DNA from: Microbacterium enclense
GTDB lineage: Bacteria; Actinomycetota; Actinomycetes; Actinomycetales; Microbacteriaceae
Assembly: GCF_001456955.1 (NCBI RefSeq)
Contig: NZ_KQ758473.1
Coordinates: forward strand, 1 to 64,000
Direction of reading: 5' to 3'
Length of the DNA: 64,000 nt
How positions within the stretch are numbered: the stretch's first letter is position 1; every line of letters begins with the position of its first letter. The position numbers and the translations under genes are program-made. The notes under the pieces are model-generated. The model searched no databases, was not told the DNA's origin, and worked only from the letters and a program-made list of their open reading frames with translations. This document shows, piece after piece, positions 119-14,385 of this stretch.

Positions 119-236
119 GTTTCGGCGGCCATAGCGAGAGGGAAACGCCCGGTCACATTCCGAACCCGGAAGCTAAGCCTCTCAGCGCCGATGGTACTGC
201 AGGGGGGACCCTGTGGGAGAGTAGGACACCGCCGGA
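119..236 (+). rRNA. rrf: 5S ribosomal RNA
   Basis: The segment carries the 5S hallmarks: a CGGCGG 5' arm pairing with CCGCCG at the 3' end, the 'CCGAACCCGGAAGCTAAG' type core, and a 'GGGAGAGTAGG' 3' part. Length is about 118 nt, as expected. It is the last gene of an rRNA operon that enters from the left and is followed at once by a strong hairpin. Ends are placed by pairing of the terminal stem and may be off by a base or two. Confidence 0.95.
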
Positions 237-246
237 CTTCCTTTAA

Positions 247-3973: not shown

Positions 3974-3996
3974 ATGTCGGGGGTCGGGCGTAGCGT
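3974..3996 (+). promoter_or_regulatory. PafBC/RecA-NDp-type promoter of the GIY-YIG gene
   Basis: ATGTCGGGG (3974-3982), 8 nt, TAGCGT (3991-3996), then 6 nt to the ATG at 4003. Architecture and spacing are identical to the uvrA and uvrB promoters in this window. Confidence 0.7.
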
Positions 3997-4002
3997 GAAC
4001 GC

Positions 4003-4554
4003 ATGCCCGCCCCCGTCTGTCTCGTCGACGAGTGCGCCGGAGCGGTGATGCCCTTCGCGCCCGTGGCGCTGTGCGCGTGGCACGCTGCGGTGAGCGCGGA
4101 CTGGGTGACCGCGCACGACGGGGTGACCGACGTCCTCCCGGCACCCTGCCGACTGTGCGGATCGCGGCTGGGGGTGCGATGGCCGAGCGGGTGGCTCTGC
4201 GCGGTCTGCGAGTGGCGGATCGGCGACCCGGTCGACGACGAACTGCCCCCGCCCCGCGTCGATGTCGTGTACTACCTCCGGTACGGCGACCGTATCAAAA
4301 TCGGCACGACGGCGCAGCCCCGCCGGCGACTCGCCGCCATCTGGCACGATGAGCTGCTCGCCTTCGAACGCGGCGACCGCATGGTCGAGAGGCGACGGCA
4401 TGCGCTCTTCGCCGAAGAACGGTTCGAGCGCACGGAATGGTTCCGGCGATCGCCGGCCCTCGACGCGCACGTGGCTTCCCTGGCTGCCGGAGTCGATGAT
4501 CCGTGGGCGCTCTTCGCCCGATGGACGAGTGAGGCGATCGCGAGGCGGGGCTGA
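4003..4554 (+). CDS. Zinc-ribbon GIY-YIG family protein (T5orf172/MUG113-like)
   Basis: A 183-aa protein. The N-terminal half has paired metal-binding motifs: C6/C11 with C24/H27, and C49xxC52 with C66xxC69. The C-terminal half matches the GIY-YIG subgroup with a 'YYL...IKIG' core (residues 90-101), a conserved Arg/Leu helix (RRRL, 107-110) and the 'E...H..F......EWF' block (129-147) of T5orf172/MUG113 domains. These folds are nucleases or DNA-binding modules. It starts 34 nt after the GH13 stop, from its own leaderless promoter of DNA-damage type. A role in DNA repair or processing is inferred from domain plus promoter. The start is well fixed by the -10 spacing. Confidence 0.82.
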   Translation: MPAPVCLVDECAGAVMPFAPVALCAWHAAVSADWVTAHDGVTDVLPAPCRLCGSRLGVRWPSGWLCAVCEWRIGDPVDDELPPPRVDVVYYLRYGDRIKIGTTAQPRRRLAAIWHDELLAFERGDRMVERRRHALFAEERFERTEWFRRSPALDAHVASLAAGVDDPWALFARWTSEAIARRG

Positions 4555-4644: not shown

Positions 4645-5310
4645 ATGGGCTTTCTCGACCGACTCTTCGGCTCCGGTGACGACACGCCGCCGCGCACGTC
4701 GGCGGCACCTCGACCGACCGCGAGCGACTCGCGCGACGCCGACGGGCGCTACGCGCCGCCGCCGGCCGGGGGCGGTGCGCCCGTGGCATCCGGGTCGGAC
4801 GAGGACCGGCAGGCGGTCGAGCGCTATCGGTACCTCTTGCGGACGGCCCCGCCGGAGACCGTGGAGCAGGTGCACGCCGAGGCGTTCGGCAAGCTGACGC
4901 CGGCACAGCGTCAGCAGGTGCTCCAGGATCTGTCATCGGGGCTGGCGCCGTCCGAGCGCCCCGCGAACGACGATCCCGCGACGCTCGCCCGCGCGGCGAC
5001 CCGCGCGGAGTACTCGCAGCCGGGCTTCATGGAGCGCACGTTCGGCGGGAGATCCTTCGCGGGCGGCCCGGGCTTCGGTTCGGTGCTGGGCGCGTCGATG
5101 CTCGGCACCATCGGCGGCTACGTGGTCGGATCGGCGCTGGTCGGGGCGATGTTCGACCCCGGCTACGACGCCGGCTACGCCGACGGCGCGGCGGCCGAGG
5201 CCGGGGCGGGGGACATGGGGGCGACGGATGCCGGCGCGGTCGACCCGGGCGCCGGCGGCGACGTCGGGGCGGACTTCGGCGGCGATTTCGGCGGGGACTT
5301 CGGGTTCTGA
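4645..5310 (+). CDS. Glycine-rich protein with one hydrophobic segment, function unknown
   Basis: A 221-aa protein. Residues 1-50 are polar and low-complexity. Residues 55-90 form a helical stretch ('VERYRYLLRTAPPETV'). Residues 145-175 form a Gly/Ala-rich hydrophobic segment that could cross the membrane once, and the tail ends in repeated G-D-F-G units. A good ribosome site (GAAGGTGA, 4631-4638) supports the ATG at 4645. Homologues in Microbacteriaceae are sometimes labelled 'cation-transporting ATPase', but no ATPase motif is present, so that name should not be used. It lies between the GIY-YIG gene and coaE. Confidence 0.72.
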   Translation: MGFLDRLFGSGDDTPPRTSAAPRPTASDSRDADGRYAPPPAGGGAPVASGSDEDRQAVERYRYLLRTAPPETVEQVHAEAFGKLTPAQRQQVLQDLSSGLAPSERPANDDPATLARAATRAEYSQPGFMERTFGGRSFAGGPGFGSVLGASMLGTIGGYVVGSALVGAMFDPGYDAGYADGAAAEAGAGDMGATDAGAVDPGAGGDVGADFGGDFGGDFGF

Positions 5311-6025: not shown

Positions 6026-6048
6026 ATGTCGGAGGCCCCGCCTACGCT
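6026..6048 (+). promoter_or_regulatory. PafBC/RecA-NDp-type promoter of uvrB
   Basis: ATGTCGGAG (6026-6034), an 8-nt spacer, TACGCT (6043-6048), then 6 nt to the ATG at 6055. The transcript should be leaderless. uvrB belongs to the LexA-independent damage regulon in mycobacteria, so this site is expected. Confidence 0.75.
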
Positions 6049-6054
6049 GGAATC

Positions 6055-8124
6055 ATGCAGGCAACGCGTTCCGTCCGCCCCTTCGAGGTCGTCAGCGAAT
6101 ACTCGCCGTCCGGCGATCAACCCCAGGCGATCGCCGATCTCGCGGCGCGCATCAACGCCGGTGAGACCGACGTGGTTCTGCTCGGCGCGACCGGTACCGG
6201 AAAGTCGGCGACGACGGCCTGGCTGGTCGAGCAGGTGCAGCGCCCCACGCTCGTGCTCGCGCACAACAAGACCCTCGCCGCCCAGCTGGCGAACGAGTTC
6301 CGCGAGCTGATGCCGAACAACGCGGTGGAGTACTTCGTCTCGTACTACGACTACTACCAACCCGAGGCGTACGTGCCGCAGACCGACACCTTCATCGAGA
6401 AGGACTCCTCGATCAACGCCGAGGTCGAGCGCCTGCGCCACTCGACCACGAACTCGCTGCTGTCGCGGCGCGACGTCGTGGTGGTGTCGACGGTGTCGTG
6501 CATCTACGGTCTCGGTGCGCCCGAAGAGTACCTGCGCGCCATGGTCGCCCTGCAGGTGGGGGAGCGCTACGACCGCGACGCGCTCATCCGCAAGTTCATC
6601 TCGATGCAGTACAACCGCAACGACGTCGACTTCTCGCGCGGCAACTTCCGCGTGCGCGGCGACACGATCGAGATCATCCCCGTGTACGAGGAGTACGCGA
6701 TCCGCATCGAGATGTTCGGCGACGAGATCGAGGCGCTGTACACGCTGCATCCTCTGACCGGAGACGTCATCGAGAAGATGGACTCCGTGCCGATCTTCCC
6801 GGCCTCTCACTACGTCGCCGGCACAGAGACGGTGCAGCGCGCCATCGGCACCATCGAGCACGAGCTCGAGGAGCGCCTGAAGGAGTTCGAGTCGCAGGGC
6901 AAACTGCTCGAGGCGCAGCGCCTCCGCATGCGCACGACCTTCGACCTCGAGATGCTGCAGCAGCTCGGGTTCTGCTCGGGTATCGAGAACTACTCGCGGC
7001 ACATGGACGGACGCATGCCCGGCGACCCCCCGCACACCCTGCTCGACTTCTTCCCCGACGACTTCCTGCTCGTGATCGACGAGTCGCACGTGACCGTCCC
7101 GCAGATCGGCGCGATGTACGAGGGAGACGCCTCGCGCAAGCGCACGCTGGTCGAGCACGGCTTCCGGCTGCCCAGCGCCATGGACAACCGCCCGCTGCGG
7201 TGGGACGAGTTCAAGGAGCGCGTCGGACAGACCGTCTACCTCTCGGCGACCCCGGGACGCTACGAGATGGGTATCGCAGACGGGGTGGTCGAGCAGATCA
7301 TCCGCCCGACCGGCTTGGTCGATCCCGAGATCATCGTGAAGCCTTCCAAGGGGCAGATCGACGACCTGCTCGAGGAGATCCGCGTGCGCGTGGAGCGCGA
7401 CGAGCGCGTGCTCGTCACGACCCTCACGAAGAAGATGGCCGAAGAGCTGACCGACTTCCTCGGCGAGCACGGTGTGCGCGTGCGCTACCTGCACTCCGAC
7501 GTCGACACCCTGCGCCGCGTCGAGCTGCTGACCGAGCTGCGCGCGGGCGTCTACGACGTGCTCGTCGGCATCAACCTGCTGCGAGAAGGACTCGACCTGC
7601 CCGAGGTGTCGCTCGTGGCGATCCTGGATGCCGACAAAGAGGGGTTCCTGCGCAGCGGTACCTCTCTCATCCAGACCATCGGCCGCGCCGCGCGAAACGT
7701 GTCGGGTCAGGTGCACATGTACGCCGACAAGATCACCGACTCCATGCGCAACGCGATCGACGAGACCGAACGCCGCCGCGAGAAGCAGATCGCGTACAAC
7801 ACCGAGAACGGCATCGATCCGCAGCCCCTGCGCAAGAAGATCGCCGACATCACCGAGGTGCTGAACCGGGAAGCCACCGACACGAAGAAGCTCCTCGCTC
7901 GCAACGACAAGGCGAGCAAGGGCAAGGCGCCGACACCGTCGCTGCGGCGCACGGGCATCGCCGCCGAGGGCGCCGATCAGCTGGAGTCGACGATCGCCGA
8001 TCTGACGCAGCAGATGCTGGCCGCGGCGGCCGAGCTCAAGTTCGAACTGGCCGGGCGGCTTCGCGACGAGGTGCAGGACATGAAGAAGGAACTGCGGGCG
8101 ATGGAGCGGGCCGGGCACGCCTGA
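6055..8124 (+). CDS. uvrB: Excinuclease ABC subunit B
   Basis: A 689-aa helicase-like subunit of nucleotide excision repair that receives damaged DNA from UvrA and positions UvrC. Walker A GATGTGKS lies at residues 44-51. The strand-clamping beta-hairpin with its Tyr-rich '[10 protein letters not shown]' starts near residue 97. A 'DESH' helicase motif II, motif VI 'QTIGRAARN', and a C-terminal UVR motif that contacts UvrC complete it. Length is normal. The longer open frame upstream is ruled out because the leaderless promoter places the start exactly at 6055. It is close to uvrA-uvrC but separately transcribed, and it shares the same promoter type with uvrA. Confidence 0.97.
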
Positions 8125-9421: not shown

Positions 9422-9444
9422 ATGTCGGAGGCCCGACCTAGACT
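9422..9444 (+). promoter_or_regulatory. PafBC/RecA-NDp-type promoter of uvrA
   Basis: ATGTCGGAG (9422-9430), 8 nt, TAGACT (9439-9444), then 6 nt to GTG 9451. The -35-like element is identical to that of uvrB. Confidence 0.75.
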
Positions 9445-9450
9445 TAACAC

Positions 9451-12438
<2,988 letters not shown>

Positions 12439-12441
12439 GCC

Positions 12442-14385
12442 ATGGCATCCCGAGAACGGATGTCGCAGCTTCCCTACCGCCCGAAGGCCGGCGAGATCCC
12501 CACCAACCCGGGGGTCTACCGGTTCCGCGACGCCGAGGGTCGAGTGCTGTACGTCGGCAAGGCGAAGAATCTGCGTGCGCGGCTGTCGAACTACTTCGCG
12601 CCGCTGTATTCGCTGCACGAGCGCACCCGTCGCATGGTGACCACGGCCGCCAGCGTGGAGTGGACGGTCGTCCCGAGCGACATCGACTCGCTGCAGCTGG
12701 AGTACATGTGGATCAAAGAGTTCGATCCACCCTTCAATGTGCGCTACAAAGACGACAAGTCGTACCCCTTCATGGCCATCACCCTGGCCGATGAGGCGCC
12801 GCGGGTCATCGTCACGCGCAACCCCAAGATCCGCGGGGCGAAATACTTCGGGCCGTATCCCAAGGTGTGGGCGGTGCACGACACGATCGACCTGATGATC
12901 AAGGTGTTCCCGATCCGCACGTGCAGCGATTCCTCGTACAAGAAGGCGATGGCATCGGGCCGTCCCTGCTTCCCGGGGCAGATCGGGCGCTGCGGCGGGC
13001 CGTGCTCGATGAAGGTCACGATCGAGGAGCATCGGGCGATCGTCAACGATTTCGTCGCCTTCATGTCGGGAGGCGACCAGCGCTTCGCGAAAGAACTGAC
13101 CTCGCGCATGAAAGAGGCGTCCGCCGCGATGGACTACGAGTCGGCCGCGCACTACCGCGACCGCCTGCAGGCCATCGACGCGGTGTTGGGCAAGAGCGCC
13201 CTGGTGCTGGCTTCCGACACGGATGCCGACCTGTTCGGTATCGCCGAAGACGAGCTCGCCGCGACCGTGCAGCACTTCGTCGTGCGCGGGGGCCGCGTGC
13301 GCGGGGTGCGGGCCACGACCATCGAGAAGGAGATCGACATCTCGGGCGCCGAGCTCGTCGACCAGGTGCTGCAGCGCACGTACGGCGATGCGGATGCCGG
13401 CGACATCCCGCGTCAGGTGCTCGTGCCCGAACTGCCGGATGACGCCGACCAGCTGGAGGCGTGGCTGCGCGAGCGCCGCGGTCGCCCGGTGACCCTGCAG
13501 GTCGCCCAGCGCGGACGCAAGTCCGACCTGTTGAAGACGGCCACGTTGAACGCGCAGCAGGCGCTCATGCTCCACAAGACGCGCCGCACGAGCGACTACG
13601 TCGCCCGGTCGCAGGCCCTCACTGACCTGCAGGAAGCCCTCGGCATGACCGAGGCGCCGCTGCGCATCGAGTGCTTCGACGTCTCGCACCTCTCGGGCAC
13701 CAACGTCGTGGCATCCATGGTCGTCTTCGAAGACGGACTGCCCCGCAAAGATCAGTACCGCTCTTTCGGCGTCGCGGAGACCACCGACGACACCGACTCG
13801 ATGTATCAAGTGCTCACGCGGCGCCTGGCGTACCTCGACCGCCCCGACGAGATCGAGCCCGAGACCGTGGGCGGCGCCATCGTCGCGGCACCCGACTCCG
13901 ACGAGGCCACGGCCGACGGCGAAGTCGTGACGGCACGGAAGCGTCCGCGTTTCGCGTATCGACCGCAACTCCTCGTCGTGGACGGCGGTCAGCCGCAGGT
14001 TGCGGCGGCAGCGCGCGCCCTCGCCGATGCGGGCCACGAGGAGATCGCGCTCTGCGGGATCGCCAAGCGCCTCGAAGAGGTCTGGTTGCCGGGGGAGGAG
14101 TACCCGGTGATCCTCCCGCGGACGTCGGAGGCGCTCTACCTGCTGCAGCGGCTCCGCGACGAGGCGCACCGGTTCGCCATCGTGCACCAGCGCAAGCGCC
14201 GGAAGCGCGACATCAACAGCGTGCTCGCCGAGGTCCCGGGGTTGGGCGACGCCCGTATCAAGGCTCTGCTGCGGCACTTCGGGTCGGTCTCGGCGCTGAA
14301 GGAGGCGAGCCCTGACGAGATCACGGCCCTGCCCGGCATCGGCCCGACCCTGGCCGAGGCCATCCACGCACACCTCGCTCGGTAG
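12442..14385 (+). CDS. uvrC: Excinuclease ABC subunit C
   Basis: A 647-aa dual-incision nuclease. The N-terminal GIY-YIG domain ('GVYRFRD...[18 protein letters not shown]', residues 17-50) cuts 3' of the lesion. A UVR motif near 210-245 binds UvrB. The RNase-H-like domain with '[12 protein letters not shown]' makes the 5' cut. Tandem helix-hairpin-helix motifs end the protein ('[17 protein letters not shown]', '[16 protein letters not shown]'). It begins 3 nt after the uvrA stop and so is expressed from the uvrA damage promoter. An internal ATG at 12460 is an alternative start. Confidence 0.96.

Follow-up and report, generated by a model that had tools for sequence, protein, structure and literature searches.

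A 183-codon gene of Microbacterium, preceded by what looks like a DNA-damage promoter and encoding a nuclease-like domain behind two zinc knuckles, raises the question of whether it serves DNA repair. The gene lies in the window, that is, the whole stretch of DNA analyzed here, which covers 64 kb from the start of contig C7 in a 3.67-Mb genome. An earlier note on this DNA had proposed an undescribed damage-inducible nuclease or DNA-end-binding factor of Microbacteriaceae. The reading preferred here, to which we give a somewhat better than even chance from sequence and structure models, is that of a damage-inducible repair endonuclease, chromosomally encoded and subject to PafBC-type regulation.

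The gene and its promoter

The gene starts 33 nt past the stop codon of the preceding gene, and this 33-nt intergenic region contains TGTCGG, ten bases, TAGCGT and six bases, followed by the ATG (Table 1). The LexA-independent damage promoter of mycobacteria has the printed consensus tTGTCRgtg-8 nt-TannnT (PMC5656591). At 3975-3996 its capital letters, TGTCR and TannnT, are present and correctly spaced; the lower-case 't' and 'gtg' read A and 'ggg' at this locus. The promoter had been described earlier as TGTCGG-N8-TAGCGT with 6 nt to the ATG, in a feature running from 3974 to 4554; the boxes, the 6-nt gap and the 3' end stand, but TGTCGG begins one base later, and the spacer counted from TGTCGG is 10 nt, which is the published RecA-NDp/PafBC spacing; a count of 8 nt results only when the longer consensus box is taken as the starting point. 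The transcript would be leaderless, starting at the ATG at 4003.

The strict pattern, followed within 4-8 nt by a start codon, is found at four sites in the window, whereas 100 shuffles give a mean of 0.01; of the three sites besides that of the GIY-YIG gene, two precede uvrB and uvrA, which bears out the shared geometry noted earlier for these promoters. Differences from locus L003 fall at codon positions 1, 2 and 3 in the numbers 18, 16 and 69, a bias which shows that the gene is under purifying selection.

The surroundings of the gene are recorded here as well. A 5S rRNA gene lies at the start of the contig, and in many other Microbacterium assemblies a break likewise falls some 3.7-4.2 kb 5' of the GIY-YIG gene; breaks at this place would fit a repeated rRNA operon upstream. 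Downstream lies a gene for a 221-aa protein without a Pfam family above cut-off; at 25 loci (cluster 5) a relative of it directly follows the GIY-YIG gene.

Table 1. Positions of the features discussed (window coordinates unless a locus is named).
Feature	Position	Strand	Basis or remark
5S rRNA	121-237		contig start
Upstream element TGTCGG, PafBC/RecA-NDp-type promoter	3975-3980	+	sequence; consensus (PMC5656591); kept before orthologues
-10 element TAGCGT	3991-3996	+	10 nt past TGTCGG, 6 nt 5' of ATG
Gene of zinc-knuckle GIY-YIG (T5orf172/MUG113-like) protein, 183 aa	4003-4554	+	
Zinc knuckle 1, C6-x4-C11 ... C24-x2-H27 (CCCH)	4018-4083	+	invariant in 51 sequences; kept in three actinophage proteins
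Zinc knuckle 2, C49-x2-C52 ... C66-x2-C69 (CCCC)	4147-4209	+	invariant in 51 sequences
GIY-YIG domain, residues 87-161	4261-4485	+	PHROG 8604, second-look structures, conservation
Downstream gene, 221-aa protein	4645-5310	+	
uvrB promoter, same arrangement (comparison site)	6027-6057	+	strict-pattern scan
uvrA promoter, same arrangement (comparison site)	9423-9453	+	strict-pattern scan
UvrC-like PF01541 match	12508-12729		sole PF01541 match of the genome
Partner gene copy, locus L047	5668-6756	-	
Partner gene copy, locus L231	3524-4396	-	
Partner gene, 36 further scored loci			

The occurrence of the motif before orthologues was one of the checks named beforehand, and its result is clear. The set of named orthologues consists of the 80 best among 120 loci found; the exact motif with 10-nt spacing precedes 57 of the 80 and the motif with at most one mismatch 72, the gap to the start being 6 nt in 69. 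At the same loci, 283 other likely genes yield ten exact motifs and three with one mismatch, and the ten exact ones belong to four uvrB genes and six copies of the partner gene described below. In a second set, at most one mismatch is found in 44 of 64 rows versus 1 of 1280 shuffles; the scoring takes the best start among several, and the shuffles of this set were treated alike. The sets overlap by six identical pairs, two of which are refetches. Over all 138 distinct proteins, 113 have the motif with at most one mismatch and 75 have it exactly; with at most one mismatch it is also present at 26 of 40 loci from 37 genera (three being extra copies). By neighborhood, the motif is present at 47 of 51 loci of the Microbacterium type, at 34 of 39 that have the partner gene, and at 35 of 52 elsewhere. 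In the Microbacterium type, the neighbors named by eye are RpsA, CoaE, UvrB, a histidine kinase and a glycosidase-like protein.

At the called start, the motif is absent from 28 of 144 orthologue rows (25 of the 138 distinct proteins), including several genera and the two positive genomes outside the family. Three loci (L080, L230, and L253) have the full motif close by, with another spacing or start. At L080, from Leifsonia (4962-5003), the exact promoter leads to a GTG with a frame of four codons, and the ATG of the gene follows 11 nt later, in a different frame.

In the genome as a whole, TGTCR-N11-TANNNT-N4-8-RTG has 105 matches and the reversed pattern one. Among the 100 sites listed, of which two rows are one site with two starts, 98 rows have an open frame of at least 60 codons, mostly at a gap of 6 or 7 nt, and a few resemble non-genes. 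Names given by eye to genes at the listed sites include RecQ, Tag, RadA, two ExoIII-like proteins, LigA, RecG and HMCES/SRAP, and further DNA polymerase III subunits (dnaE, dnaX), RecF, Mfd, GyrB, RarA and SbcD. For a random sample, 40 of 95 downstream proteins were drawn and 30 scanned as the sample: eight have replication or repair domains in Pfam and 22 are not obviously repair proteins. Seven more, chosen rather than drawn at random, were confirmed by Pfam as replication or repair proteins.

The promoter set also holds many metabolic genes, among them that for glucose-6-phosphate dehydrogenase, along with transporters and hydrolases, and these favor a general leaderless promoter of the lineage, with the GIY-YIG gene encoding a constitutive nuclease or housekeeping protein. 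We consider that quite improbable. TGTCGG is in place at only 4 of the 12 TANNNT-N6-RTG matches in the window (a small sample, counted whether genes or not), so the promoter looks more specific than an ordinary leaderless promoter of this organism. Repair genes are well represented in the set; in our own reading of names assigned by eye, eleven of its genes match products named as UV-induced in Curtobacterium (PMC12029717), and the mycobacterial PafBC regulon is likewise described as having more than 150 genes (PMC8223512). The generic reading is thus not preferred, given the 105 matches against one, the scan of neighboring genes, the 4 of 12 and the make-up of the gene set.

The presumptive regulator is at hand, as PafB and PafC are encoded in the genome by two tandem genes, the first with WYL and WCX domains and the second with HTH_PafC and WYL, the PafC HTH scoring 105.6 bits. 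PafBC is described as an activator triggered by single-stranded DNA (PMC11804915). That the GIY-YIG gene has a PafBC-type damage promoter is the firmest part of the case and, judged from sequence, very probably correct; PafBC-type regulons outside mycobacteria would then become readable from sequence, here in Microbacterium.

Three further sites carry the same promoter type (L184, L186 and L188, at C6:277738, C6:330109 and C7:65512) and belong to two near-identical genes (MPDRIVPTAPKGG... and MPDRVVPTAPKGG...) and a DUF222 gene, Pfam having matched DUF222 for L188. These genes resemble repeated genes of the 13E12 type.

Zinc knuckles and the GIY-YIG domain

The two knuckles claimed in the earlier note are borne out in that their eight Cys/His residues are invariant in the 51-sequence alignment; both presumably bind metal. 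The GIY-YIG domain that follows is invariant in the same alignment at Y90-Y91, K99-I-G-T, R109, E129, H133 and E145-W-F. The catalytic Tyr, Arg and Glu are thus conserved, and Y90/Y91, R109 and E129 are also present in three phage relatives; the Tyr of the second motif is replaced by Lys (KIG). The window protein narrowly misses the curated Pfam cut-offs (T5orf172, 19.1 versus 20; MUG113, 18.6 versus 22.3), for which reason it is named T5orf172/MUG113-like and not a member of either Pfam family; at E <= 0.01, MUG113 matches 46 and T5orf172 41 of the 51 sequences. PHROG 8604 matches the domain with an E-value of 8.4e-20. NCBIfam gives nothing meaningful for the window protein, and a profile search of PDB sequences with it found nothing.

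The AlphaFold2 model has a mean pLDDT of 90.5 and a pTM of 0.62, with a helical C-terminal part. Plain Foldseek against the PDB gives no significant row for this protein. A second-look structural comparison is headed by six rows that are all GIY-YIG proteins, at middling Z scores of 5.0 to 3.2, and the next row has a Z of 2.4; the six are Slx1 (6sei: Z 5.0, rmsd 3.9, 97 aligned; also 6seh, 4xm5 and 7cq2), UPF0213 (1zg2, Z 4.2) and the GIY-YIG domain of UvrC (1yd6: Z 3.2, rmsd 2.9, 59 aligned), and their alignments all fall within residues 82-183. The named top matches in the Foldseek viral library are GIY-YIG/T5orf172 proteins, the first being a Mycobacterium phage protein (E 1.8e-7). The GIY-YIG reading made earlier is supported by the second-look structures and PHROG, with Pfam just under its cut-offs.

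Fold and conserved residues together predict nuclease activity, which we regard as likely. The replaced Tyr and the scores under the Pfam cut-offs could instead indicate a non-catalytic factor, in which the knuckles and a degenerate GIY-YIG domain would bind damaged or branched DNA and recruit repair proteins. Such a role is very unlikely: Y90/Y91, Arg109, Glu129 and His133 are invariant in all 51 sequences, and Gp88 of phage ICP1, a T5orf172 protein described as missing a different residue typical of the domain, retains the Arg and Glu and is a proven DNA nuclease, its activity being lost in a variant with the Glu changed (PMC8263062). The DNA-end-binding factor proposed earlier gained no evidence of its own. 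As for the damage-inducible nuclease proposed with it, the regulatory half, a leaderless promoter of the PafBC type, has good computational support and the genome has the WYL/PafC-HTH gene pair; the nuclease half draws on the fold and the conserved residues.

Distribution, phage relatives and a partner gene

By profile search, the protein occurs in 112 of 249 Microbacteriaceae genomes, a patchy distribution over 42 of 85 genera, with one match per genome in 111 of the 112; in the window genome it is single-copy and the sole match of its own family. Class-wide, 18 matches occur in 394 genomes: Microbacteriaceae account for 13 and a different family within the order for one, and the remaining four lie outside the order and cover the GIY-YIG part only. 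A search of 297 genomes from the order finds the gene in two that belong to a single other family, at 64-66% identity and without the motif, which suggests transfer; a third genome matches weakly in the GIY-YIG part. Several genera (in genomes G083, G216, G260, G651, G840 and others) have a short form without the first knuckle, matching the profile from about position 40; G840 has two copies of it, and some short forms keep the damage-type promoter.

Relatives are also found in actinophages, at 32-37% identity: gp83 of Frokostdame and gp85 of MissRona, both Gordonia phages, and gp91 of the Mycobacterium phage Cornie. A tblastn search of phages gives 64 records at E <= 0.01, none of which covers 80% of the protein. 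The best reading of these searches is a gene almost confined to Microbacteriaceae, with kin in actinophages. The attribution to Microbacteriaceae in the earlier note accordingly stands for the full-length protein and fails for the two genomes of the other family and the actinophage relatives.

The phage kinship raises the alternative that the gene is a domesticated phage homing endonuclease or other phage-derived nuclease now directed against phage or foreign DNA and induced by damage through infection or prophage signals. The Gordonia and Mycobacterium phage proteins share the catalytic motifs as well as the first knuckle, zinc-finger DNA-binding domains are described as usual in the T5orf172 homing endonucleases of phages (PMC10448857), and the gene is patchy. 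No PADLOC model (2023) matches, however: four proteins (the GIY-YIG protein and partner) hit zero families at E <= 0.1. A plasmid search has no match to the GIY-YIG protein, and a scan of viral_contigs with the single protein is empty, although that scan detects close relatives only. With regard to homing-endonuclease features, the gene stands alone with its own promoter, of the type of repair genes, and is single-copy among neighbors that are common to the Microbacterium loci and different elsewhere in the family; it may still descend from a mobile endonuclease of this kind. The defensive role is therefore rated unlikely, and repair is our choice over defense, an unproven one held at slightly more than even strength.

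A second candidate nuclease, new here, often adjoins the GIY-YIG gene and has the same promoter type. Its product, the partner protein, is mostly about 275-480 aa long and predicted to combine a zinc ribbon with a Vsr/Bax1-like domain. The ribbon is a treble-clef of the DUF4379 type, above the Pfam cut-off in two of four proteins tested; the C-terminal domain weakly resembles REase_MTES_1575/DUF559 in three of the four, each time below cut-off. The structure model has moderate confidence (62.8). Foldseek ranks Vsr first and second for it, not significantly (E 0.11 and 0.28), and in the second look the C-terminal domain matches Bax1 (Z 7.9), I-Bth0305I (7.8) and Vsr (7.1), all below 8 and alongside an unrelated-looking mitoribosome chain at Z 7.8. 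A profile search of PDB sequences with the partner found nothing.

The two genes adjoin in Frigoribacterium, Clavibacter, Frondihabitans and many further genera; orientation varies, being mostly convergent, with the partner upstream or co-directional at some loci. The promoter with at most one mismatch precedes 31 of 38 scored partner copies near the GIY-YIG gene (28 of 35 distinct). It also precedes 10 of 18 scored copies elsewhere in the genome (shuffles, 1 of 900), two of the 20 loci there having given no start.

Counting one genome per genus, 30 of the 39 genera that carry the GIY-YIG gene also have the full partner, as opposed to 1 of the 46 that do not carry it (Fisher 6.6e-14, a value that is only indicative because related genomes are not independent). 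These counts omit four genomes with the Vsr-like domain only and two weak matches, with which the figures become 32 of 39 and 5 of 46. The one-per-genus set of 85 was deduced from genome numbering (G000, G021, G125, G249, G280, and G651-G730), and adding later-numbered genomes reproduces the tallies of 42/85 and 39/85 genera. In a partial check of genome size, nine one-per-genus genomes of at least 2.8 Mb are among the 20 listed without a GIY-YIG match, and none of the nine is among the 51 partner matches. Two large genomes without the GIY-YIG gene, G125 and G249, have only domain-level or weak partner matches, and the 2.6-Mb genome G722 has the partner without the GIY-YIG gene. Both genes lie within 1 kb of each other in 11 of the 30 genera that have them and not in the other 19, so the link is more than shared position. 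The window genome itself lacks the partner by direct search, an empty result that means little by itself for want of a positive control, and by a family-wide search with 51 positive genomes; the partner is thus probably not part of the mechanism there.

Proposed function and likeness to known systems

RNA-seq of Curtobacterium after UV-C lists among the induced genes a "GIY-YIG nuclease family protein", named separately from UvrC, and a PD-(D/E)XK nuclease family protein (PMC12029717, 2025). Curtobacterium belongs to the same family as the window organism, Microbacteriaceae. The Curtobacterium orthologue of the window gene is a fair candidate for the UV-induced protein, because in the window genome PF01541 finds only the UvrC-like match and the window protein is the sole match of its own family. 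The epithet "undescribed" in the earlier note is thus nearly right: our literature search found no functional study of this GIY-YIG protein, and the UV-induced Curtobacterium entry qualifies the term.

In the preferred reading, a build-up of single-stranded DNA would cause PafBC to bring RNA polymerase to the TGTCGG-N10-TANNNT promoter; the mRNA, leaderless and beginning at the ATG, would be made at the same time as those of uvrA, uvrB and further repair genes. The protein would attach to a lesion or DNA structure through its two N-terminal knuckles, and its C-terminal GIY-YIG domain, using the Tyr, Arg109 and Glu129, would then cut a single strand in the manner of the GIY-YIG parts of UvrC and Slx1. 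The partner, found with a damage promoter in many relatives, would make a second incision there.

UvrABC is the textbook dual-incision system of bacteria. An extension that we consider a speculative and rather unlikely possibility is that Microbacteriaceae have a damage-induced two-nuclease excision system outside UvrABC, in which the GIY-YIG and Vsr/Bax1-like proteins would act as nickases and cut on both sides of a lesion or branch, the window genome having the GIY-YIG half only. If true, this pair of zinc-ribbon nucleases would constitute a second incision pathway in one bacterial family, and phage-type T5orf172 nucleases would have been recruited into a chromosomal damage response. Both genes are small, so the two-nuclease claim is testable with purified proteins and single deletions.

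Several known systems share parts of this design. The T5orf172/MUG113 nucleases, that is, phage homing endonucleases and ICP1 Gp88, have the same domain type, KIG and the catalytic Arg and Glu, and a zinc-binding part N-terminal to the nuclease domain, as in the window protein; the latter differs in being chromosomal with a damage-type promoter, in having no Pfam match of the CapR/DUF723 type and in scoring below the Pfam cut-off. The actinophage GIY-YIG proteins have the same first knuckle (C-C-C-H) and YY..KIGT..R..E..H..EWF motifs, but the two from Gordonia phages lack the second knuckle, and the phage genes sit in phage clusters beside genes for HTH proteins and, in the Gordonia phages, HNH as well.

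The N-terminal domain of UvrC has the same fold, and the GIY-YIG gene has the promoter type of uvrA and uvrB; in contrast to UvrC, of which the genome has its own candidate (Table 1), the window protein is without UvrB-binding, EndoV-like and HhH parts (no Pfam match at E <= 1). For the partner, the similarity of its C-terminal domain is to the Vsr/Bax1/I-Bth0305I nucleases, from which it differs by the preceding zinc ribbon of the DUF4379 type. Slx1, which acts together with Slx4 and bears a RING-type part at its C-terminus, provides the best second-look rows and, like the window protein, joins a GIY-YIG domain to a zinc-binding part; in the window protein, however, the knuckles are N-terminal and the C-terminal RING/PHD zinc part of the Slx1 type is absent.
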